A DNA stretch of 33,094 bases from Acidobacteriota bacterium. GTDB taxonomy: Bacteria > Acidobacteriota > Terriglobia > Terriglobales > Acidobacteriaceae. The stretch spans positions 1 to 33,094 of the forward strand of contig JAKAFB010000019.1 in the NCBI GenBank assembly GCA_021818105.1. The letters are read 5' to 3'. The notes beneath the pieces were generated by a model. It was not told the DNA's origin. It made no database searches and saw only the letters and a program-made list of their open reading frames with translations. Below are positions 388-9,754 of this stretch, piece after piece (position 1 is the stretch's first letter; the number at the start of each line of letters is the position of its first letter). The position numbers and the translations under genes are program-made.

Positions 388-1854
388 TTATGCTTCAAAG
401 TCGATGAAGCCACGCTCGGGATCGGTGCTGACGAGGCGGACTGTCACGCGGTCGCCGACGTCGAGCCCCTTGGCGCCGCGGACGAGCATGCCTTCCACGT
501 GAGGATCGAAGGTGCGCACGAAGGTGCCGTAGTTATTGACGCCGGTGACGACGGCGCGGAAGCGATCACCAATGCGCGGATGGAGCACGACGGCGGCGAT
601 GCGCTTTTGCATTTCGCGCTCGACCTTGCGGGCGGCGTTCTCCATGCTTGTGCAGCGCTCGGCGATGGCGTTGAGGTCGTCCTCAGAGTACGGCTGAGGG
701 CCGCGCGCAAGCCATGCCTTGAGCAAACGCTGCGTAACGACGTCAGGGAATCGGCGATTGGGCGCGGTGGAATGGGTGTAGTCCTGCACGGCGAGGCCGA
801 AGTGGCCGGGAGACTCTTCTTCCGGCTTGACGAGCACATATTCACCGGGCCCCATGAGTTTGACAACAGCCAGGGAGAGATCGGGGAAACGGTCGGGGTC
901 TTTCTGCTTTTGCGCGAGCAGGAAATCGTTAAGGGCCTTGGAGTCTGGCGTGGAGGGCAGAGATCCGCCGAGGCCAGCGGCTACTTCCACGATGCGGTCC
1001 CAGCGCTTGGGCGTGCGGACCACGCGGCGGATGGATGCGACGTTGGCGCCATCAAAGATGCGGGCGATGACGCCGTTGGCCGCGACCATGAACTCCTCAA
1101 TGAGTGCCGTGGCGCGGTTCTTTTCGAGGCGTGCGATTTCGACGGCTTCTTCGGCGAGCATAACGGGGCGGGTTTCAATGGTTTCTAGATCGAGCGCGCC
1201 GTGCTGGAAGCGGCAGTCAAGCATGCGCTGCGCGGCTGCATCCTGCAGCTTGAGCTGGGCGGCGAGTTGCGGATTGGCAGCAACCTTCTCTGGCGCCGGA
1301 CCAGCGCCCGCGAGCCAGGTGCCGATGGAGGGATAGGCAAGCTGCGCGCTGTTGCGCACGAGCGCGCGATAGGCTTTGCCGCCGGTAACGCACCCTTCTT
1401 CATTCACGCAGAATTCAATGATCAGGGCGAGGCGGTCCTCGTTCTCGTTGAGCGAGGTAATGCCTTCGGAGAGCTCCACGGGGAGCATGGGGAAGACCTT
1501 GACGCCGGTGTAGACCGAAGTGGTCTCACTGCGCGCGTGGCTGTCAATGAGGGAGCCGCGCAGGACGCGGGCATCGACATCGGCAACACCGATGAGGACG
1601 CGGATGCGGCCGTCGGGCAGGTGCTCTGCCCACTCAATCTGGTCGAGGTCCCTGGAGGTGTCGTTGTCAATAGACGACCAGAGGAGCGAGCGGAGATCCT
1701 TCGCATCGGGAGCGGCGGGAAGCTTGGGGCGCGCCTGAATGGCGGCGATTTCAGTCTCAGTGCCCGCAGGAAAGTCCGGCTGGAAGCCATGCTCGAGCAT
1801 GGAGGCATGGGCGGCTGCGACGAGGTTGAAATGCAGTGCATGATGAGCGTGCAT
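388..1854 (-). CDS. RNB-domain ribonuclease (RNase II/R superfamily)
   Basis: This is a 488-residue protein with an RNB exoribonuclease core and a C-terminal S1 RNA-binding domain (about residues 420-487, VVTGVNNYGTFVR). The family degrades single-stranded RNA 3' to 5' with metal ions in the cytoplasm. The ATG at 1854 was chosen because AGGAGG lies about 10 bases upstream; an extension to 1926 has no such signal. The active-site segment is IDNDTSRDLDQ (residues 62-72). Asp63, Asp69 and Asp71 match three of the four RNase II catalytic aspartates, but the fourth position is Gln72. The second conserved segment is YTHSTAPNRRFPD. N-terminal cold-shock domains of classical RNase II/R are absent, so it belongs to a shorter RNB subfamily. 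It is separated from the upstream cytochrome cluster by a terminator and is probably monocistronic. Confidence 0.88.
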   Translation of the reverse strand: MHAHHALHFNLVAAAHASMLEHGFQPDFPAGTETEIAAIQARPKLPAAPDAKDLRSLLWSSIDNDTSRDLDQIEWAEHLPDGRIRVLIGVADVDARVLRGSLIDSHARSETTSVYTGVKVFPMLPVELSEGITSLNENEDRLALIIEFCVNEEGCVTGGKAYRALVRNSAQLAYPSIGTWLAGAGPAPEKVAANPQLAAQLKLQDAAAQRMLDCRFQHGALDLETIETRPVMLAEEAVEIARLEKNRATALIEEFMVAANGVIARIFDGANVASIRRVVRTPKRWDRIVEVAAGLGGSLPSTPDSKALNDFLLAQKQKDPDRFPDLSLAVVKLMGPGEYVLVKPEEESPGHFGLAVQDYTHSTAPNRRFPDVVTQRLLKAWLARGPQPYSEDDLNAIAERCTSMENAARKVEREMQKRIAAVVLHPRIGDRFRAVVTGVNNYGTFVRTFDPHVEGMLVRGAKGLDVGDRVTVRLVSTDPERGFIDFEA

Positions 1855-1925
1855 CGCGAATGGCCCTCCTGAACTGCGAAGGGACAGCCTAACACGCGGG
1901 GCGGGTGACGCGCGGACCATGCACA

Positions 1926-1951
1926 AAGGCGGCCGGGAATCGGGCCGCCTT
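1926..1951 (-). terminator. Terminator-like hairpin closing the cytochrome cluster
   Basis: A perfect 9-bp inverted repeat (AAGGCGGCC / GGCCGCCTT, 8-base loop) starts 26 bases after the stop codon of the ImcH-like gene and ends in TTTG on the minus strand. It separates the cytochrome cluster from the ribonuclease gene. The T tract is short, so it could also be a 3'-end stabilising hairpin. Confidence 0.6.
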
Positions 1952-1977: not shown

Positions 1978-3420
1978 TTATTGCTGAATGCCGAGGTCTG
2001 CCAGCACCTTGGGCTTGGATTCATCGACGGCCAACAGGTTGTGGCAGACAGCGCAGTCCTGCGGGATGCTGGAGCCATCCTTGGCGTTGTGGTCGCCATC
2101 GTGGCAACGGAAGCAGCCGGGATAGCTCATGTGGCCAATGTGATTGGGATGCGTTCCCCAGGTAACCTTCATGTCAGGAAAAACATTCTGGCTGTAGAGG
2201 GTGACGAGTTCCTTGCCGGCGGCCTTAACGAGATCTGCCTTGGAGGAGAGCACATCAGGATTGCTGCTGCGATAAAAGGCTTCGAGCTCGGCAGGAATCC
2301 TGGTGCTTGCGTCAGCCTGGCTGCCGTAGGTGGCTTTCAGCAGCACGAGACCTTCTTTGTGGACCCAGGGCAGCGACGGGCTGATGGCGCCGATAGCCAT
2401 GGCGCTGTTGAGGGCTTCCTCTGCGGTGACGAAGGTGTGCGCGGCGCGGTTGTGGCAGTCGATGCAATCCATGAGGCGGCGCTCGCCCTTCGGTGTGGCG
2501 CCGTTCAGCGAGGAGGCCGTGAAGGCGGTCTCGGAGCCGTCTGGGTTGCGCTTGGAGACCCAGGGAATGGTGGTCCGGCTCTCATCGGTGGCGATGTATT
2601 CGATGTGGCCGAGATGCACACCGTGGATGCCGGTGAGGTGGGAGAGTCCGTCGAGGCCACCGAGGTGGAGGACGACGACGGATTGCGTCTCAGTGTTCTG
2701 CTCATCGTCAGCGAAGGAGGACTTGACGAGCAGCCTTTCACCGACGAACTTGGCCGGCGTGTGGCATCCCTCGCAGATGACGCGCGCAGGACGCAGGTTC
2801 TGGACCGGCGAAGGGATGGGCCGCGAATAGGTGTTGAAGGCCACTTCAAACAACTGCTTGGTGCCATCCACCTTGGCGGCGAAGTAGGATCTTGCTCCCG
2901 AACCTATGTGGCACTCCACGCAAGCGACGTGGGAGTGGGGAGATATTTTGTAAGCGGTGTACTCCGGGTGCATCACGTGGCAGGAGGCGCCGCAGAACTG
3001 CGGAGAGTCCATATAGGCCGCGCCTCGATAACTTGCCATGGAAACGACGAGGAAGTTGATGATGGTGGCCACAAGCACGATATCGACGCCGTGGCGGAAG
3101 ATGCGGTCGTTGAAGTCGACCTTGGGGTAAACGGCAGGGATTTTTCCCGCCTTTAGCAGGCTCTGGTGGCGGATAAAGATGCCGACAGGGATGATGAGCA
3201 GGCCCAGCACAAAGAGGGCCGGCAAAATGAGGTTGAAGATGATGCCGAGATAAGGATTGGGATGTGGCTGAGCGAACATTTCCATCAGCCAGTTACCAAT
3301 CATGGTGACGCCGGCTGCAGTGGTGATGGCACCACCGGCAAGGCTGATGGGATTGTTGCCAAAAAAGAGCGCAGGGCGCACCCAGTGTTCGCGGAATCTC
3401 AGGCTCAGAAAGGTCGGCAC
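1978..3420 (-). CDS. ImcH/NapC-NirT-like membrane multihaem cytochrome c (quinol dehydrogenase)
   Basis: This 480-residue protein has three predicted N-terminal membrane segments (about 26-49, 57-83 and 112-129) followed by a periplasmic cytochrome region. Haem sites are one C-X3-CH (Cys143/Cys147/His148, followed by Met150) and five CXXCH motifs starting at Cys167, 216, 319, 436 and 456, so six c-type haems are predicted. The first two sites with the HVM and CVECH context resemble the NapC/NrfH quinol-oxidising module. Three membrane segments plus NapC/NirT plus extra haems is the architecture of Geobacter ImcH, which passes electrons from menaquinol to the periplasm; ImcH is usually described with seven haems. 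The start is a GTG at 3420 with GAGGG just upstream. It is the last gene of the minus-strand cytochrome cluster. The inferred role is entry or exit of electrons at the quinone pool. Confidence 0.85.
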   Translation of the reverse strand: MPTFLSLRFREHWVRPALFFGNNPISLAGGAITTAAGVTMIGNWLMEMFAQPHPNPYLGIIFNLILPALFVLGLLIIPVGIFIRHQSLLKAGKIPAVYPKVDFNDRIFRHGVDIVLVATIINFLVVSMASYRGAAYMDSPQFCGASCHVMHPEYTAYKISPHSHVACVECHIGSGARSYFAAKVDGTKQLFEVAFNTYSRPIPSPVQNLRPARVICEGCHTPAKFVGERLLVKSSFADDEQNTETQSVVVLHLGGLDGLSHLTGIHGVHLGHIEYIATDESRTTIPWVSKRNPDGSETAFTASSLNGATPKGERRLMDCIDCHNRAAHTFVTAEEALNSAMAIGAISPSLPWVHKEGLVLLKATYGSQADASTRIPAELEAFYRSSNPDVLSSKADLVKAAGKELVTLYSQNVFPDMKVTWGTHPNHIGHMSYPGCFRCHDGDHNAKDGSSIPQDCAVCHNLLAVDESKPKVLADLGIQQ

Positions 3421-3442
3421 GTTGCCCTCGGGTCAGAAGTAA

Positions 3443-3468
3443 GCGGCCCGCCGAGTGCGGCGGGCCGC
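3443..3468 (-). terminator. Strong intercistronic hairpin before the ImcH-like gene
   Basis: A perfect 11-bp inverted repeat (GCGGCCCGCCG / CGGCGGGCCGC, 4-base loop) lies between the stop of the monohaem cytochrome gene (3479) and the GTG of the ImcH-like gene (3420). On the minus strand it is followed by TTACTTCT. It can act as a partial terminator or as an mRNA-stabilising hairpin that lowers expression of the membrane cytochrome relative to the soluble one. Confidence 0.65.
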
Positions 3469-3478
3469 GGGGAGCACT

Positions 3479-3799
3479 TTACTTCAAGGTGCGGAAATAC
3501 ACAACAGCTTCCTTGATCTGCTCGTCAGAGAGCTTGCCTTTGAAGGAGGGCATCTTGCCCTTACCATCCGTAGTGGCCTTGATCATGTCGGCCTCGGACA
3601 GCTTCTTCATTTCCGGACTGGCGATGGGCATGACCTTGAGCATCTTGGCCGAGGGTGTGTCTGCAGCGCCCTTGGCGCCGTGGCACATGGCGCATTTTGC
3701 CTTGTAGGTTGCCTCGCCTGCGGATTGCGCGAAGCCCATGGAGCCGGCCATACATACAGTGGCAGCCAACACCGCGAGAGTACGAATCGTTCTTGTCAT
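3479..3799 (-). CDS. Periplasmic monohaem cytochrome c (paralogue 2)
   Basis: A 106-residue class I cytochrome c with a cleavable signal peptide (cleavage probably after GFA, about residue 24). It has a single CAMCH haem site (Cys36, Cys39, His40) and a likely axial Met83 in GKMPSF. The ATG at 3799 is preceded by AAGGAG with 7 bases of spacing. The protein is colinear with its neighbour at 4003-4326: both have the haem Cys at residue 36 and the Met at 83, and share HGAKG, ADTPSAK and YFRT. A tandem duplication is the simplest origin. Its place between the outer-membrane conduit and the quinol dehydrogenase suggests a soluble electron shuttle across the periplasm; this is inference. Confidence 0.9.
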   Translation of the reverse strand: MTRTIRTLAVLAATVCMAGSMGFAQSAGEATYKAKCAMCHGAKGAADTPSAKMLKVMPIASPEMKKLSEADMIKATTDGKGKMPSFKGKLSDEQIKEAVVYFRTLK

Positions 3800-3965
3800 T
3801 GCATCACTCCTTCAAGTTGTTCCACGGCCAGGATGCTGAAAGCGCATCTGCCATGCAGTGTTTCCTACACAGTTAAACCCCGGTCGCGGCGCTGTGTCGC
3901 ACTGATTTACTGCCAGTCTTGCCAGGCGACGCAGAGACCCCGGGGGGGCGGCACAGCCATCATGA

Positions 3966-4001
3966 GGGAATGAAGGCTGCGCCGGTTTTTAATTCATTCC
4001 C
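3966..4001 (-). other. 3' hairpin after monohaem cytochrome paralogue 1
   Basis: A perfect 9-bp inverted repeat (GGGAATGAA / TTCATTCCC) with an 18-base loop begins one base after the stop codon of the cytochrome gene at 4003. It lies in the roughly 200-base spacer (3800-4002) before the second cytochrome gene. No gene was seen in that spacer. It is more likely an mRNA 3'-end structure than a full terminator, because no T run follows. Confidence 0.5.
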
Positions 4002-4002
4002 G

Positions 4003-4326
4003 TTACTGCAAAAAGGTGCGGAAATAGGCTACCACGCCCTTAATCTGAGCGTCGGTCAACTTGTCCTTGTAGGGTTGCATTTTGCCCATCCCGTTGCGGA
4101 CAGCCTCCTCCATTTTTGCCTCAGTCATCCCTTTGACTTCAGGGTCAGTGACAGGCTTCACCTTCATGGCCTTGGCTGAAGGGGTGTCTGCCATACCCTT
4201 CGCGCCGTGGCACATCTGGCACTTTGATTTGTAAAGAGCTTCGCTGGACGGCTGCGCGAAGCACACAGCGCCCGTAAGCAGGAAGACTGCTGTCAGGGCC
4301 ACTTGCAATCGAATCATCTTGCGCAT
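4003..4326 (-). CDS. Periplasmic monohaem cytochrome c (paralogue 1)
   Basis: A 107-residue class I cytochrome c with a signal peptide (MRKMIRLQ then a hydrophobic core, cleavage after CFA). The haem site is CQMCH (Cys36, Cys39, His40) and the probable sixth ligand is Met83 in GKMQPY. The ATG at 4326 is chosen over an extension to 4371 because GGGAG precedes it by 7 bases and the signal peptide then starts normally. It is the close paralogue of 3479-3799. Charge differs between the two: this copy has more Lys/Glu exchanges around residues 56-80, which could mean different partners. Predicted role: soluble periplasmic electron carrier for the adjacent MtrAB-like conduit. Confidence 0.9.
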   Translation of the reverse strand: MRKMIRLQVALTAVFLLTGAVCFAQPSSEALYKSKCQMCHGAKGMADTPSAKAMKVKPVTDPEVKGMTEAKMEEAVRNGMGKMQPYKDKLTDAQIKGVVAYFRTFLQ

Positions 4327-4421
4327 GGTAAAACTCCCGTTTGATTTCCGCACTCCCCGGCGTGCATGCAAGCGTTGCGGAACAGATGCGGACTCGTAGA
4401 GAAGAACGTTTTACACAGTGG

Positions 4422-4451
4422 GCGCGGGAGGCAATGCCATGCCTCCGGCGC
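4422..4451 (-). other. Intercistronic hairpin after the MtrB-like gene
   Basis: The arms 4422-4433 and 4440-4451 pair over 7 bp, one G-G mismatch and 4 more bp, with a 6-base loop (ATGCCA). It lies in the 217-base spacer between the barrel gene (stop at 4544) and the first monohaem cytochrome (4326). No open gene was seen in this spacer. No T run follows on the minus strand, so mRNA processing or protection is more likely than full termination. Confidence 0.5.
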
Positions 4452-4543
4452 GATTCAGTTCCCGGAGGGAAAAGAAGAGGTGAACCGGCACTTCATCCGA
4501 ACCCGGTCCACCCCAGCCATCCTCAGAGGTACAGCGGTTTCAA

Positions 4544-7171
4544 TTAGAACTCATAGTGCATGCCAAGGGTGACGTTGTTGGAGTGGAAGTTCCTTGGCCC
4601 TGTGAGGCCGGACGGCGGTTCGGTTAGGCCGACCGGGCCTGTGATTGTGGACGACGTACACGGAACAACCGTTGCGGTGAACGAAGTTGTGGTGCTGCAG
4701 TACTGCGCACCTGAAGGCCCACCTTCTCCGTAGCCGTAGTAGTTATACTCTGCGGACCAGATCCAGCTTGGCCGCACGGCATAGGAGAACGTTGCAAAGG
4801 GAGTCTGGTACGTAGAGTTGAGAGACCCGTTGACAGCGCGGGCGTCGTTGAAGAACTGGCTGCCGTTCACTGCACTGATGCGGTAGCCGAGATTCGAGTG
4901 CACCTTCTTGTTGGGAGACATGGTGAGAGCCACCGTGCCCGAGTTCGTGGGAGCCGACATGAAGTCACGAGCGATCCAAGACACCAACTGGGTTGTGGAA
5001 CCCCTGGCAAAGACACCGGGACATACATTCGGCGTACCGGCGGCTGTGAGTGTTGCCGTGCCTGGATAGTTGGGGCCGTTCGCACCGCTGGTGTAGCACA
5101 TGTTCGTGGCTGTGTACACGTCAGTGAATGCGTAGGTGAGGTCGACGCCCCAGTGCTCGTTCTTGGCGATCGTCGCACCGACGCCCATGAACCGGCTGTG
5201 ATCGACATGATCGATAGGCTCAATGTAGGGCTGGATTTCTTCGCCCGCTACTTCAGCCGCTTGACGATCGGCTTCAGTAATGTTGTTGGTGTTGTTATGC
5301 CGCTCGCGGTCCGAGAAGGATCCGGAGATTGTTGCCCAGGGCTTTGGCCGGTACTGGGTATGGACCCTGTACTGCTGCCGTTGACGCGGAGCAACAGGCG
5401 TGAGCACGTTATCGGCGTAGGAAACGATCGCCGTACCGTTGAGTTGCCAGTTCGAGGTGGGGCGCAAAGCCGCATTGAAGATGCCGCCGTTCTCCGTAAT
5501 GGACACCGTACCGCTGACGGGATCGCCATACACGATGTTTCCATTGTGGGGCACACCCTGGCCGATGTTGTGGTTGAGGTAGCGATAGCCAAGCGCGAAG
5601 GACGCGCGTGGCGTGGCATCCCAACGCACGGTAAGCGTGTTGATTGTGAATTGCTGGCCGAAGTAGTTGTACGTGAGGTAGCCGTTGATGCCGTGCGGCA
5701 GAGTGCCAACACCTGGGGTCAGCGGACCGGAGTAGTTGATGGTCTGGTTGCCCGTGGAGGTTGTCGTATCCTTAGGCGTGTTGAGGGTTGCCGGCGCAGG
5801 CACGTTTGAGTAGCCGGGCTGATGGACGGTGGAGTAATTCACCTGGTCAGAAACACTGACCTTTTTGGCAACCTGCCAGACAATGCCATAGTCGATGACG
5901 AAGGCGGAGCGATGTCCGCGGGCGTAGCCGCCACTGTAAGTCTGCTCGCGCGCGGTGCCGTTGAGACCCTGTACATCCTCGTAGTAGCTGGGCAGGTCCA
6001 TGGTCCCGAGAGTGTAGGTGATGTTGCCGTTCATCGAGACGTCCTTCAAGGCACTGCTCTGGAAATGGAGGATCTCGGTGGGCAGGATTATCCTTGTGGG
6101 CTGCGTGCGGGAGTAGCTGGTCACGACAGCGCATGCAGGGTTGATGATCGGCAGGCCGCCGGGCGTATTCGGTGGCGACAGGATTGTGTAATGGGTCTTG
6201 TCGGTGTAGGCGGAGCCCATGCTGGTGGTGGTGCAGGCGCCAATGCCATAGGGCGTTACGCTGTCCCAGTTGCCAAGGTAGACGGGGGTTCCGTCCGCCT
6301 CCTGCACCATGAAGTCCTTCGGGTTCAGGGTGAAGAAGGAGTCCATCTTGTAGTGATTGACAAACTGCTGATAGGTCACCGTCGTTTTGTCAGAGGGTTT
6401 CCAGTCGATGGCGCCGCTAAACTCATCCGTGCCGTTGCGCTGGTACTGCTGGAGCAGCGCATCGTACTTGAAGATGGAATAGCTGGGGCTCAGCGTTGGG
6501 CCTTCCATGGTGTAGTGCGAGTAGCCGACGTGATACGTAAATTTTGAAAGCGGAAGAATGGTCAGATTCACGTCGGTCATGCGTCGCACGGTATTGAAGA
6601 GCACGGAAGAGTGCATAACCTGAGGCCATGCCAGCGAGCCGACGGGAGCGTTGGAGGGGCCGATGGGAATGGACAGGCCATTAGGGATGTTGGGATTGCC
6701 CAGCAGGTTGTAGTCGAAGTACTGGCGGTCACGACGGAACATGCCGGAAAACTGGAAGAGCTTGCCCTTGTAGAAATTCAATCTGACAAGGTTGTTGGGA
6801 TCACCACCAAAGCCGCTGGTGAAACCGCTGAGCGAATCGATCAACGGATTTTTGTTGCCCGGCAGCGCATGCATCTCAATGGTCTGGCCGAGGACGCGTG
6901 GACCGGACTGGAGATTGACCAGCGTGGAGTACATGGCGTCCGCGCCTGAGAGATTGACTATATGGCCGCCGAGATCGACGGTCTGATGGATGGAGTAGCC
7001 TTGCGGGGCACTCACCGGTTGCGATGATGGCGCATCCGGAGCCTGGGCGCGTGCTGCACCCTGCGCCATGCAGAGTACGATGGCCGCCCCAATTCCTGCG
7101 GCGATGCGCAGGGCCTTTGCAGGAGAGGTCTGTCGCCTGGACAGCGGATCAAATTGACTTAACTTTCTCAT
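4544..7171 (-). CDS. MtrB/PioB-family outer-membrane beta-barrel of a porin-cytochrome conduit
   Basis: An 875-residue exported protein. The signal peptide ends near ARAQAP (about residue 43). The rest is rich in alternating aromatic/polar strands (for example YHVGYSHYTM, FALGYRYLNHN, WIWSAEYNYYGYG) and ends in YEF, the terminal aromatic signature of outer-membrane barrels. MtrB/PioB proteins form a roughly 26-strand sheath around an MtrA-type decahaem cytochrome. The assignment rests on this fold pattern plus the decahaem gene directly upstream. It is longer than Shewanella MtrB (about 700 residues), so long extracellular loops are expected; Cys pairs around residues 316/349, 698/718 and 828/842 may cross-link them. 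The N-terminal CXXC of Shewanella MtrB is not present. The ATG at 7171 has GAGG upstream; the GTG at 7183 does not. Confidence 0.82.
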   Translation of the reverse strand: MRKLSQFDPLSRRQTSPAKALRIAAGIGAAIVLCMAQGAARAQAPDAPSSQPVSAPQGYSIHQTVDLGGHIVNLSGADAMYSTLVNLQSGPRVLGQTIEMHALPGNKNPLIDSLSGFTSGFGGDPNNLVRLNFYKGKLFQFSGMFRRDRQYFDYNLLGNPNIPNGLSIPIGPSNAPVGSLAWPQVMHSSVLFNTVRRMTDVNLTILPLSKFTYHVGYSHYTMEGPTLSPSYSIFKYDALLQQYQRNGTDEFSGAIDWKPSDKTTVTYQQFVNHYKMDSFFTLNPKDFMVQEADGTPVYLGNWDSVTPYGIGACTTTSMGSAYTDKTHYTILSPPNTPGGLPIINPACAVVTSYSRTQPTRIILPTEILHFQSSALKDVSMNGNITYTLGTMDLPSYYEDVQGLNGTAREQTYSGGYARGHRSAFVIDYGIVWQVAKKVSVSDQVNYSTVHQPGYSNVPAPATLNTPKDTTTSTGNQTINYSGPLTPGVGTLPHGINGYLTYNYFGQQFTINTLTVRWDATPRASFALGYRYLNHNIGQGVPHNGNIVYGDPVSGTVSITENGGIFNAALRPTSNWQLNGTAIVSYADNVLTPVAPRQRQQYRVHTQYRPKPWATISGSFSDRERHNNTNNITEADRQAAEVAGEEIQPYIEPIDHVDHSRFMGVGATIAKNEHWGVDLTYAFTDVYTATNMCYTSGANGPNYPGTATLTAAGTPNVCPGVFARGSTTQLVSWIARDFMSAPTNSGTVALTMSPNKKVHSNLGYRISAVNGSQFFNDARAVNGSLNSTYQTPFATFSYAVRPSWIWSAEYNYYGYGEGGPSGAQYCSTTTSFTATVVPCTSSTITGPVGLTEPPSGLTGPRNFHSNNVTLGMHYEF

Positions 7172-7245
7172 CTGAAGCCTCACTTGGAAAACGTTGCTCG
7201 CGGCGAAACATTCAACGCGCGCGCAAGGTTGCTACGAGATCCGGA

Positions 7246-7271
7246 CCGCGCCCTCCACACGGAAGGCGCGG
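7246..7271 (-). other. Hairpin between the decahaem and barrel genes
   Basis: A perfect 7-bp inverted repeat (CCGCGCC / GGCGCGG, 12-base loop) lies 9 bases after the decahaem cytochrome stop (7281) in the 109-base spacer before the barrel gene. No T run follows. It fits the pattern of hairpins in every spacer of this cluster. Confidence 0.45.
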
Positions 7272-7280
7272 AGCAGCCTG

Positions 7281-8246
7281 TTACCGAATAAACGCCTGGC
7301 TGAGGTTCGAACCATGGATCATGGTGTGGCAGTCAATACACGGAGTGACCGTGTTTGAGCCAGGATCAATTCCATGGACCGCGCCTGCGGCAACCGGGCT
7401 ATGGCACTGGTTGCAGAGCGTGGCGATCGTCGGCATGTTCAGGAGCCGCGCGTTTTGTGAACCATGCGGCGTATGGCATGCGGTGCAGCCCTCGGCCTTG
7501 ACCGGAGCATGCTCGAACACAAATGGTCCGCGCACGTCGGTATGGCACTTGGTGCAGACAGCATTCTGATCCGCCGTGGATCTCAGGTTGTTTTCTCCAA
7601 AGGTGCCGTGGGCGTCATGGCAGTCTGAGCACTTGACCAGACCTTCATTGACGCGATGATGGAACGGCATGCCAAATGAGGGCTTCACGTCTGTATGGCA
7701 CTGGTAGCAGAGCTGAGGCTGTGAAGCCTTGAGCAGATACTCCGATGCCTTGGGAGCGTGAACCGAGTGGCAGCCTGTGCAGCCAACGTCAGCTTTGGCG
7801 TGAGGGGAACGTTCGAAGTTGGGATGCGTGCCGGCATGACACTTGAGGCACGTCTGGTCGACCTGTTTTGCGGATGCCTTGGCAGGGTTGAAGATCTTGC
7901 TTACATCGCCGCCGCCATCCACGTGCGCCTTGCCCGGACCATGGCAGCCTTCGCAAGTGACGCCGGACTTGCCGTGCATCATGGCAATTTTGGTGTGCGG
8001 ATTGTTTGCAAACCCCTTGGCGACATCCTCATGACATGTGGCGCAGGTATCTGAACCAACAAAGTCAGCCTGGGCGGGTTGAGCGGCCTGAACATTGGCC
8101 TGTTTGGCCCCGTTTGGCGGAGCGGCATTTGCCGTGGCGCACAACAACCCTGCGCCGAGCAGCAGCATCAAGAAAACTTGCAGTCCCGGCTTCCTGCCCG
8201 GAGCCGCACCGATCAACAATCGCATTACTGGCCCATCTCTATGCAT
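7281..8246 (-). CDS. Decahaem c-type cytochrome, MtrA/PioA/DmsE type
   Basis: A 321-residue exported protein with ten CXXCH motifs, first cysteines at 68, 98, 133, 156, 180, 206, 231, 254, 278 and 303. Number of haems and length match MtrA/PioA/DmsE (about 300-340 residues), the periplasm-spanning haem wire that plugs into an MtrB barrel. A hydrophobic signal segment (about 22-41, ending TANAAP) directs export. The ATG at 8246 is preceded by GAGGTGG with 6 bases of spacing; a further ATG at 8225 would give a more usual signal peptide but has a weaker ribosome binding site. It is the first gene of the cluster and faces the Crp/Fnr-type regulator across the operator region. Direction of electron flow (metal reduction or oxidation) cannot be read from sequence. 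Confidence 0.92.
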   Translation of the reverse strand: MHRDGPVMRLLIGAAPGRKPGLQVFLMLLLGAGLLCATANAAPPNGAKQANVQAAQPAQADFVGSDTCATCHEDVAKGFANNPHTKIAMMHGKSGVTCEGCHGPGKAHVDGGGDVSKIFNPAKASAKQVDQTCLKCHAGTHPNFERSPHAKADVGCTGCHSVHAPKASEYLLKASQPQLCYQCHTDVKPSFGMPFHHRVNEGLVKCSDCHDAHGTFGENNLRSTADQNAVCTKCHTDVRGPFVFEHAPVKAEGCTACHTPHGSQNARLLNMPTIATLCNQCHSPVAAGAVHGIDPGSNTVTPCIDCHTMIHGSNLSQAFIR

Positions 8247-8957: not shown

Positions 8958-9026
8958 ATGAGGTGTTGGAGCTTTTTATCGGCGAAAGCCTGGGTGAGAC
9001 GATGGCGGAACTTGGAATTCCCGTAG
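8958..9026 (+). CDS. Possible 22-residue leader ORF upstream of the regulator
   Basis: An ATG at 8958 has an excellent ribosome binding site (GGGAGG, 7 bases of spacing). The ORF encodes 22 residues with three Trp and several Arg (begins MRCWSFL, ends NLEFP), then stops at TAG 9024-9026 followed at once by TAA 9027-9029. That TAA overlaps the ATG at 9029 of the regulator frame (TAATG). It overlaps the alternative regulator start at 9002. It may couple translation to the regulator or be chance; expression is not shown. Confidence 0.35.
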   Translation: MRCWSFLSAKAWVRRWRNLEFP

Positions 9027-9754
9027 TAATGCATAGACGGCAGAAGCAGATACCGCGGCATGCGCCGGTGGGTTGCGCGGCCTGCTCCAATCGCCGGCCC
9101 GGCTGGTTCTGCTCGCTGGGCAGTGCCGTGTTGGCAGACCTTGAACTTGCCACCAGCACCATTTCGCTTCCCGCGCAAGCTTCATTATTTGCACAGGGAG
9201 AGGAAGCGCGCTGCCTCTACCTAATCTGCGGCGGCTATCTGAAACTGACAGCGGGACATCCGAACGACCGGCAGATGATTGTCCGCGTGGCAGGGCCAGG
9301 CTCCATGCTGGGGCTCTATGCGGTGCTGTCTCATGGGGTGTATGAGGTTTCGGCGGAGTCGCTGACGGCCGCGCAACTGAGGCCGGTGGAGCGTGAGCGT
9401 TTTTTGAACTTTCTGCGCAGCCACAAGGAAGCGCAGATGCGCGCCGTGCAGTGCATTTGCCAGGAGTATCGCTTTGCGCTGCAGGATGCCTGCCGGATTT
9501 CGCTGGCGGAAACAGTGGCGGCGCGGCTGGGCCGGCTGCTGCTGGAGCTGGGACACCAGATCGGCGAAGAGAAGAGTGAAGGCAGGCTGCACTTTCCGCT
9601 GCTGCTGACGCATGAAGAGATGGCTTCCATGGCCTGTACGACGCGGGAGACGGTGACGCGCACACTGGGCCAGTTCCGCAAGGAGGGCTGGATCTCCATT
9701 GAGGACTCGGTGGTGACCCTGCACCATCCGGAGCGGCTGGAAACGCTGATTTAA
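9002..9754 (+). CDS. Crp/Fnr-family transcriptional regulator with N-terminal cysteine cluster
   Basis: A 250-residue regulator with an N-terminal cysteine motif C-X2-C-X8-C (Cys25, 28, 37), a cyclic-nucleotide-binding-type beta roll (about 40-150), a dimerisation helix and a C-terminal winged helix. The recognition helix reads RETVTR (215-220): Arg215, Glu216 and Arg220 are the CRP-type residues that contact GTGA, unlike the V-E-x-x-S-R of FNR. The beta roll lacks the Glu and Arg-Ser that bind cAMP in CRP, so cAMP is an unlikely ligand. The cysteine cluster resembles FNR but with different spacing, so an Fe-S or thiol redox switch is possible. Start is uncertain: ATG 9002 (weak GGTGAG), ATG 9029 (coupled to the leader ORF), or a longer form from GTG 8855. 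Divergent from the cytochrome cluster, it is the obvious candidate regulator. Confidence 0.85.
   Translation: MAELGIPVVMHRRQKQIPRHAPVGCAACSNRRPGWFCSLGSAVLADLELATSTISLPAQASLFAQGEEARCLYLICGGYLKLTAGHPNDRQMIVRVAGPGSMLGLYAVLSHGVYEVSAESLTAAQLRPVERERFLNFLRSHKEAQMRAVQCICQEYRFALQDACRISLAETVAARLGRLLLELGHQIGEEKSEGRLHFPLLLTHEEMASMACTTRETVTRTLGQFRKEGWISIEDSVVTLHHPERLETLI

Follow-up and report, generated by a model that had tools for sequence, protein, structure and literature searches.

The stretch of acidobacterial DNA analysed here (33,094 nt, contig JAKAFB010000019.1 of assembly GCA_021818105.1, family Acidobacteriaceae; called the window below) carries a five-gene array on its minus strand, from position 8246 to 1978, in the order mtrA, barrel, cyc1, cyc2 and imcH. 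The array is real and conserved. Its parts are of known kinds, and its unusual feature is imcH, which stands in the place of the quinone module of an mtr cluster. What is new is this pairing of imcH with mtrAB, together with an apparent exchange of the outer end of the conduit. We hold it moderately probable that the cluster is an MtrAB-type porin-cytochrome conduit with its own quinone module, in which menaquinol oxidation would be coupled to extracellular reduction under low oxygen. Published work is cited below by PMC identifier, from extracts of the papers.

Composition of the array

The mtrA gene (7281..8246, minus strand) encodes a c-type cytochrome of 321 residues, read from an ATG at 8246, with a hydrophobic signal segment and ten CXXCH motifs. 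The product matches TIGR03508, the DmsE family of NCBIfam, at 267.5 bits against a cut-off of 192.2. It also matches 6r2q_A, the MtrA chain of the solved Mtr complex, at an E-value of 3.4e-38 in phmmer (the chain carries another molecule name in the sequence table). Ten CXXCH motifs are present in 37 of 40 extracted homologues; of the remaining three open reading frames (ORFs), one is split, one mis-extended and one truncated. By its motif count and the profile match above cut-off, the predicted decahaem protein belongs to the MtrA/DmsE family.

The barrel gene (4544..7171, minus strand) encodes 875 residues, and its assignment is based on the predicted fold. Its identity was examined by structure because no family model or solved chain matches it by sequence: no Pfam or NCBIfam model is matched at E 0.01, PF11854 (MtrB_PioB) among them, and the best hit among the sequences of solved structures has an E-value of 0.96. 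Across the whole genome, PF11854 gave no match at E 0.001, in a scan without a positive control, since one of 14 control genomes matched and that match lay below the cut-off. The model, built on an alignment of 41 relatives from named genomes, has a predicted local distance difference test (pLDDT) score of 80.2 and a predicted template-modelling (pTM) score of 0.70. Foldseek ranks MtrB (6r2q_B) first, with an E-value of 2.5e-15. A second aligner superimposes the model on the same chain with a Z of 25.2 and a root-mean-square deviation of 3.8 over 578 residues (chain of 649), spanning positions 58-875; its runner-up, a siderophore receptor, has a Z of 19.0, six units lower. Strands of at least seven residues number 28 by count, some of which may be loop strands, compared with 26 in MtrB. 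A short helix (78-84) lies between strands 1 and 2 of the model, and MtrB has a cap helix between its first two strands (PMC7198977). The barrel is thus modelled as MtrB-like by fold, without being filed as a member of PF11854, and the MtrB-type fold proposed for it in the initial annotation holds as far as a single-chain model can show.

Two exported monohaem cytochromes follow on the same strand. The product of cyc1 (4003..4326; 107 residues), which is class-I-like, and that of cyc2 (3479..3799; 106 residues) each have one CXXCH and a single N-terminal hydrophobic segment, and match PF13442 with E-values of 1e-13 and 2.2e-15, respectively. Maps of the genus usually show one or two monohaem genes per locus, with a maximum of four; the window has two.

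The last gene, imcH (1978..3420, minus strand), encodes a hexahaem cytochrome of 480 residues, predicted to lie in the inner membrane, with a helical N-terminus, one CX3CH (CGASCH) and five CXXCH motifs. It matches PF03264 with an E-value of 7.5e-12; this match and the two PF13442 matches are all above their cut-offs. Homologues of ImcH are described by an N-terminus with three membrane helices, by 5-9 CX2CH motifs and by one CX3CH of atypical form (PMC6295460). The model of the window protein has long helices at 24-49, 56-91 and 106-137, plus another at 2-21. This model is the basis of the helix count, because a hydropathy scan at 1.4 shows just two segments. The motif pattern of one CX3CH and five CXXCH recurs in 32 of 33 ImcH copies extracted from the genus, the remaining one being truncated. 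The predicted protein fits the ImcH definition, its helices by model and its motifs by sequence. As in ImcH of Geobacter sulfurreducens, helices at the N-terminus precede the CX3CH and CX2CH motifs, the number of the latter falling in the homologue range of 5-9 (PMC6295460); the window protein differs in having six haem sites instead of seven and in adjoining mtrAB-type genes. By sequence, it matches NrfH (2j7a_C) with an E-value of 6.7e-8.

The identity of the five genes, as first annotated on the minus strand within this range, is upheld by the family matches and the barrel fold. The haem sites had been put at about 19; the motif count for the whole cluster is 18, namely 17 CXXCH and one CX3CH. 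From the coordinates, the intergenic gaps down the array are 109, 217, 203 and 58 bp.

Linkage of imcH with mtrAB

The genus, including Terracidiphilus and Occallatibacter, comprises 59 genomes, counting the source genome. The barrel query matched 77 of 99 genomes of relatives (source genome included). Within the genus, ImcH is present in 56 of the 59 genomes and in 32 of 32 good-quality ones; barrel and ImcH occur together in 55, on the same contig in 50 and on different contigs in five. The imcH gene lies less than 3 kb downstream of the barrel gene, on the same strand and in the same order, in 49 of the 59 genomes, so the linkage expected in neighbouring genomes is found there and goes beyond chance. 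The same-contig exception is G007. In this genome, a divergent imcH (53% identical to that of the window) lies upstream of mtrA at locus L034, and a typical ImcH is encoded on contig C320.

The surroundings of the cluster also recur. Among 34 stretches from the genus, which differ in their reach, the regulator gene described below stands beside the cluster in 29, a relative of the RNB-domain gene in 21 and mnmG in 19. Because these neighbours recur, the locus looks like a standing chromosomal site, not an island.

A wider set of named loci was drawn from the ImcH alignment; a first contig scan with the barrel alone as query had matched no relative. Among the best 80 of 587 named ImcH loci, 42 have both MtrA and MtrB by profile in the fetched stretch, eight have one of them and 30 have neither, some of the stretches being short contigs. 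Phylum-wide, an ImcH match is found in 165 of 297 Acidobacteriota genomes, weak partial matches included, and MtrA-like genes, scored loosely, in 257 of 297. The stronger matches were compared among Acidobacteriota genomes: 134 of the 150 ImcH matches listed (the 16 weakest left out), from 128 genomes, and 127 of the 150 MtrA matches listed (the last 23 left out). The matches listed are a part of the whole, and the coordinates behind the linkage counts were copied from them by hand. Both genes occur in 73 of these genomes, and imcH lies within 10 kb of the decahaem gene in 35, from 16 families; 24 of these have the two genes on one strand. Eleven of 20 selected regions contain MtrA and MtrB, a number that gives no rate since the regions were picked mostly for imcH near a decahaem gene.

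Judged from these gene neighbourhoods, the pairing of imcH with a decahaem gene recurs in Acidobacteriota, and the window appears as its lean form: related clusters elsewhere in the phylum contain additional 11-, 13- or 19-haem genes. At four other loci (L162, L178, L180 and L184), ImcH is followed by 19- and 13-haem cytochromes, and mtrAB is absent from the fetched stretch.

Homologues of ImcH are known from 12 phyla, 19 of them in Acidobacteria (Zhong and Shi 2018, PMC6295460). As far as the extract of that survey goes, mtrAB and mtoAB were not found adjoining imcH, unlike cymA and cbcL/mtrH/mtoC. The neighbourhoods of 2018 left ImcH untied to an MtrAB-type conduit, and here one locus proposes a full path. 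No description of imcH joined to mtrAB was found in an open-access library, again as extracts. The initial annotation had set the novelty elsewhere, stating that porin-cytochrome systems usually place the quinol step at a distance. This was overstated: cymA occurs in the mtrCAB cluster of at least one member in almost all MtrCAB groups (Baker 2022, PMC8805035), and cymA and mtoC/mtrH are placed in mtrAB/mtoAB clusters (PMC6295460).

The cluster can be compared with several known systems. It shares with MtrCAB and CymA of Shewanella a decahaem protein of the MtrA family, the MtrB barrel fold and a quinol dehydrogenase related to NapC/NirT; it differs in having an ImcH-type protein for CymA, monohaem proteins for the STC/FccA carriers and no MtrC in the cluster. 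Gammaproteobacterial MtrB has an N-terminal CXXC. Compared with MtrB of Shewanella, the barrel of the window falls outside PF11854 and, by reading, is without this motif. In common with MtoAB-MtoD-CymA/MtoC of Sideroxydans and Dechloromonas and with PioAB, the array has a decahaem protein, a barrel, a quinone module and no surface cytochrome (PMC6344600, PMC6295460); here, the quinone module is ImcH, there are two monohaem genes, and iron oxidation is not implied. The Group 5 MtrCAB of Acidobacteriia (Bryobacteraceae and others) is likewise an MtrAB-type conduit from Acidobacteriota. According to the extract of PMC8805035, it has MtrC and no quinone oxidoreductase nearby, and the window shows the reverse.

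The lineage was initially described as one not usually studied for extracellular electron transfer (EET), which is only partly so. A 2013 paper had proposed MtrA homologues in acidobacteria, with a role in iron reduction (PMC3669403), and all Terracidiphilus metagenome-assembled genomes (MAGs) of Trout Bog are listed with EET genes, 3-8 assigned to 'redEET' and 0-3 to 'oxiEET' (PMC12285243).

Two barrel types and the outer end of the conduit

The barrels of the genus fall into two types. Type II comprises seven loci in the trees (L049, L050 and L060-L064), which occupy the same chromosomal site as the window type. It forms a single clade in both the MtrB and the MtrA tree (100/100 each). In the ImcH tree, type II needs four changes, and a single change is found in 0% of 200 bootstrap trees. 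Pairwise distances correlate at r 0.78 between MtrA and MtrB and at r 0.05 between MtrB and ImcH.

The same pattern is visible in DNA. Loci L036 and L049 are of different types and close to each other by imcH and regulator. Most of imcH is 80-87% identical between the two, the regulator core 76-86% and the barrel 44-67%; a pair of the same type, L036 and L033, has 72-92% in the barrel. Whole barrels are 0.20-0.47 identical between types and 0.44-0.68 within them. Within MtrA, residues 62-120 are as similar between types (0.70) as within them (0.70 and 0.73). After residue 120, identity between types is 0.61 and 0.63, in a stepwise fall toward the C-terminal haems that reaches 0.48 at residues 251-300, against 0.77 and 0.81 within types. 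The imcH and regulator genes agree with each other while the barrel and the outward half of MtrA differ by type.

The solved Mtr complex shows MtrA with its N-terminus projecting into the periplasm, while bonds with the barrel are made by the outward-facing C-terminal half (PMC7198977). The barrel and the outward half of MtrA change type together, which, as an independent line, agrees with MtrA being held in the barrel, oriented as in Shewanella. The identity pattern is as expected if the outer end, with the decahaem so seated, was apparently swapped as a unit.

Several results speak against an exchange, or at least against a clean one. The quick tree of RNB shows type II as one clade, although only three type II rows carry that gene. 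The quick trees of MnmG and Crp each contain four type changes on weak branches, of which the starred ones force one and two, respectively, and 169 and 31 of 500 shuffles are as low. Since these two trees are weakly supported, the main evidence for the exchange comes from the ImcH tree and the DNA profiles. Distances of MtrB and RNB correlate at r 0.49, about as those of MtrA and RNB (0.46). The C-terminal part of MtrA is closer to outgroups in type II (0.58) than in type I (0.43), so type I may have diverged fast.

Taken together, the chances are about evenly balanced that the barrel and the outward half of MtrA form an exchangeable cassette, swapped more than once at a fixed locus between two deeply different types. 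The inward end (the N-terminal haems of MtrA, the carriers and ImcH) would stay in place, ImcH acting as a standing socket for interchangeable conduits, and the linkage of imcH with mtrA across Acidobacteriota would name the conduit that ImcH serves. The type exchange could also show, as an experiment of nature, which side of MtrA has to fit the barrel.

Electron path, regulation and further multihaem proteins

Concerning localisation, co-expression, quinone type, electron path, direction, acceptor and regulation, we infer the following. ImcH would oxidise menaquinol in the inner membrane, and the soluble monohaem cytochromes would ferry the electrons across the periplasm, docking at those haems of the decahaem MtrA that lie N-terminally and face the periplasm. 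Inside the MtrB-like barrel, MtrA would take them through the outer membrane to its C-terminal haem, where they would pass to an acceptor outside the cell, for instance humic substances or Fe(III), either directly or via a surface cytochrome encoded elsewhere. At low oxygen, the cluster may be switched on by an FNR-like regulator whose gene diverges from mtrA. If this holds, extracellular respiration would be a core trait of these acidobacteria, with possible consequences for the cycling of humics and iron in acidic soils and peat. The genus has been recovered from soils and bogs, and a cultured strain, Occallatibacter savannae AB23 (locus L116), makes genetic tests possible.

The regulator gene (9002..9754, plus strand; likely start, by reading, the ATG at 9002) lies upstream of mtrA and encodes a Crp/FNR-type protein with matches to PF13545, PF00027 and PF00325. 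It has a conserved CX2CX8C and further cysteines; the three cluster cysteines are present in 27-28 of 31 aligned rows, four of which are short fragments of 33-54 residues. Sigma-70-like promoters number two, against 3.1 in shuffles. Terminator-like sites in the window are not in excess, with seven found and a shuffle mean of 7.0. The gap between cyc2 and imcH contains an 11-bp all-GC hairpin (3443..3468, minus strand), an attenuator, processing or terminator-like element, whose stem is the only all-GC one of at least 8 bp in the window. Of 33 genus loci that have an imcH ORF, 11 carry an all-GC hairpin at most 120 bases ahead of that gene. The hairpin may let carrier and ImcH be made in unequal amounts, or it may mark the boundary between two transcripts.

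A number of observations weigh against the favoured explanation of the cluster. A single transcript is doubtful because of the long gaps and the GC hairpin between cyc2 and imcH, and no FNR box (TTGA-N6-TCAA) is found in the mtrA-regulator gap in any of 31 intergenic stretches. Across the phylum, imcH and the decahaem gene stand on opposite strands in 11 of the 35 genomes in which they are linked. One genome, G053, has mtrA-mtrB-cyc-cyc-RNB and no imcH at the locus (L048), a true separation by map reading. The fold match of ImcH to NrfH (2j7a_C) has a Z of 5.3 over 143 residues and is tied with unrelated rows. Class-I monohaem cytochromes usually have a high potential, and such partners suit a high-potential or inward path at least equally well. 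To these are added the 'oxiEET' genes of the Trout Bog Terracidiphilus MAGs (PMC12285243), and the lack of a surface cytochrome in the cluster, which is also the case for the iron-oxidising MtoAB and PioAB. As a separate observation, G053 has a more divergent ImcH match on another contig (L226), which makes it a natural test case for partner exchange.

Some of these points bear directly on an inward conduit, in which electrons from extracellular Fe(II), reduced humics or a cathode would pass through MtrAB and the monohaem cytochromes to oxidases, or to quinone by way of ImcH; PioAB and MtoAB have been proposed to work in this manner. MtoD is a monohaem carrier, and the class-I partners of the window resemble it. 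As in PioAB/MtoAB, no surface cytochrome stands beside mtrAB (PMC6344600); mto clusters also contain a quinone module (PMC6295460), and the 0-3 'oxiEET' genes would fit as well (PMC12285243). In contrast, the only associations of ImcH homologues by 2018 were with Fe(III) reducers and quinol oxidation, according to the extract of PMC6295460, and the neighbouring regulator is FNR-like. Neither point is decisive, yet because of the link of ImcH to quinol oxidation and the FNR-like cysteines we lean to the outward direction and regard the inward one as unlikely.

The decahaem protein is named as DmsE family by NCBIfam. The conduit could thus serve a specific extracellular terminal reductase, DmsEF-like, with ImcH a general quinol dehydrogenase adjoining by chance, and the 30 of the best 80 named ImcH loci with neither MtrA nor MtrB in their fetched stretches, some of them short contigs, would agree with this. 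However, imcH stands beside mtrAB in 49 of 59 genus genomes, and no reductase gene was seen beside the cluster among the ORFs of the window, which were read by eye (Pfam was run on the five genes, RNB and the regulator). This reading is improbable. Least probable of all are two neighbouring transcription units, mtrAB-cyc1-cyc2 and imcH alone, with different partners: the hairpin, the intergenic distances of up to 217 bp, the locus of G053 with mtrAB-cyc but no imcH and a CbcL-like quinone module elsewhere in the genome speak for them, but the order is fixed in 49 of 59 genus genomes and the proximity of imcH and mtrA is repeated in other families.

The outward conduit with its own quinone module, which we favour, was initially called 'complete' and 'self-contained'. 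These terms are too strong, as the cluster encodes no surface cytochrome and the genome has, elsewhere, a 9-haem candidate and a CbcL-like pair; from the genome's gene content, the cluster appears not to be its sole relevant electron-transfer equipment. The pair is on contig C101 (L214:7510-9730), where an 11-haem cytochrome with a C-terminal membrane segment is followed by a b561-like gene (PF01292, below cut-off), and it resembles a split CbcL-type quinone module. The candidate, on contig C2 (L225:4172-5857), is a 9-haem protein with a lipoprotein-like signal, present in six of the 59 genus genomes. It was found via the MtrC/MtrF domain PF22113; in a later Pfam scan, short cytochrome c models matched it and PF22113 did not. 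This putative lipoprotein is a candidate surface cytochrome.

In sister-genus loci L139-L143, 11-haem genes, mostly with a 13-haem one, are located inside the mtrAB-imcH cluster. Their products were considered as surface cytochromes and rejected. The 13-haem protein (L139) is fused to a cytochrome b561 domain; the 11-haem protein carries a membrane segment at its C-terminus, and its gene is followed in the genus by a separate b561-like one. Because of the b561 fusion or neighbour and the membrane segment, these proteins resemble CbcL-type quinone modules. After a PF09699 scan, in which the decahaem protein of the window stood alone, the genome had seemed to have no second multihaem cytochrome of that kind. 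This was also rejected in view of the 11-haem protein of C101, the 9-haem protein of C2 and, on contig C52 (L221:5749-7113), an octahaem PF13447-type cytochrome that has a single membrane segment, and the inventory is to be read as a lower bound. Cytochrome assembly proteins are represented in the genome by three matches to PF01578. On the downstream flank of the array, an RNB-domain exoribonuclease (388..1926, minus strand; PF00773, E-value 1.4e-73) is probably no part of the electron path.

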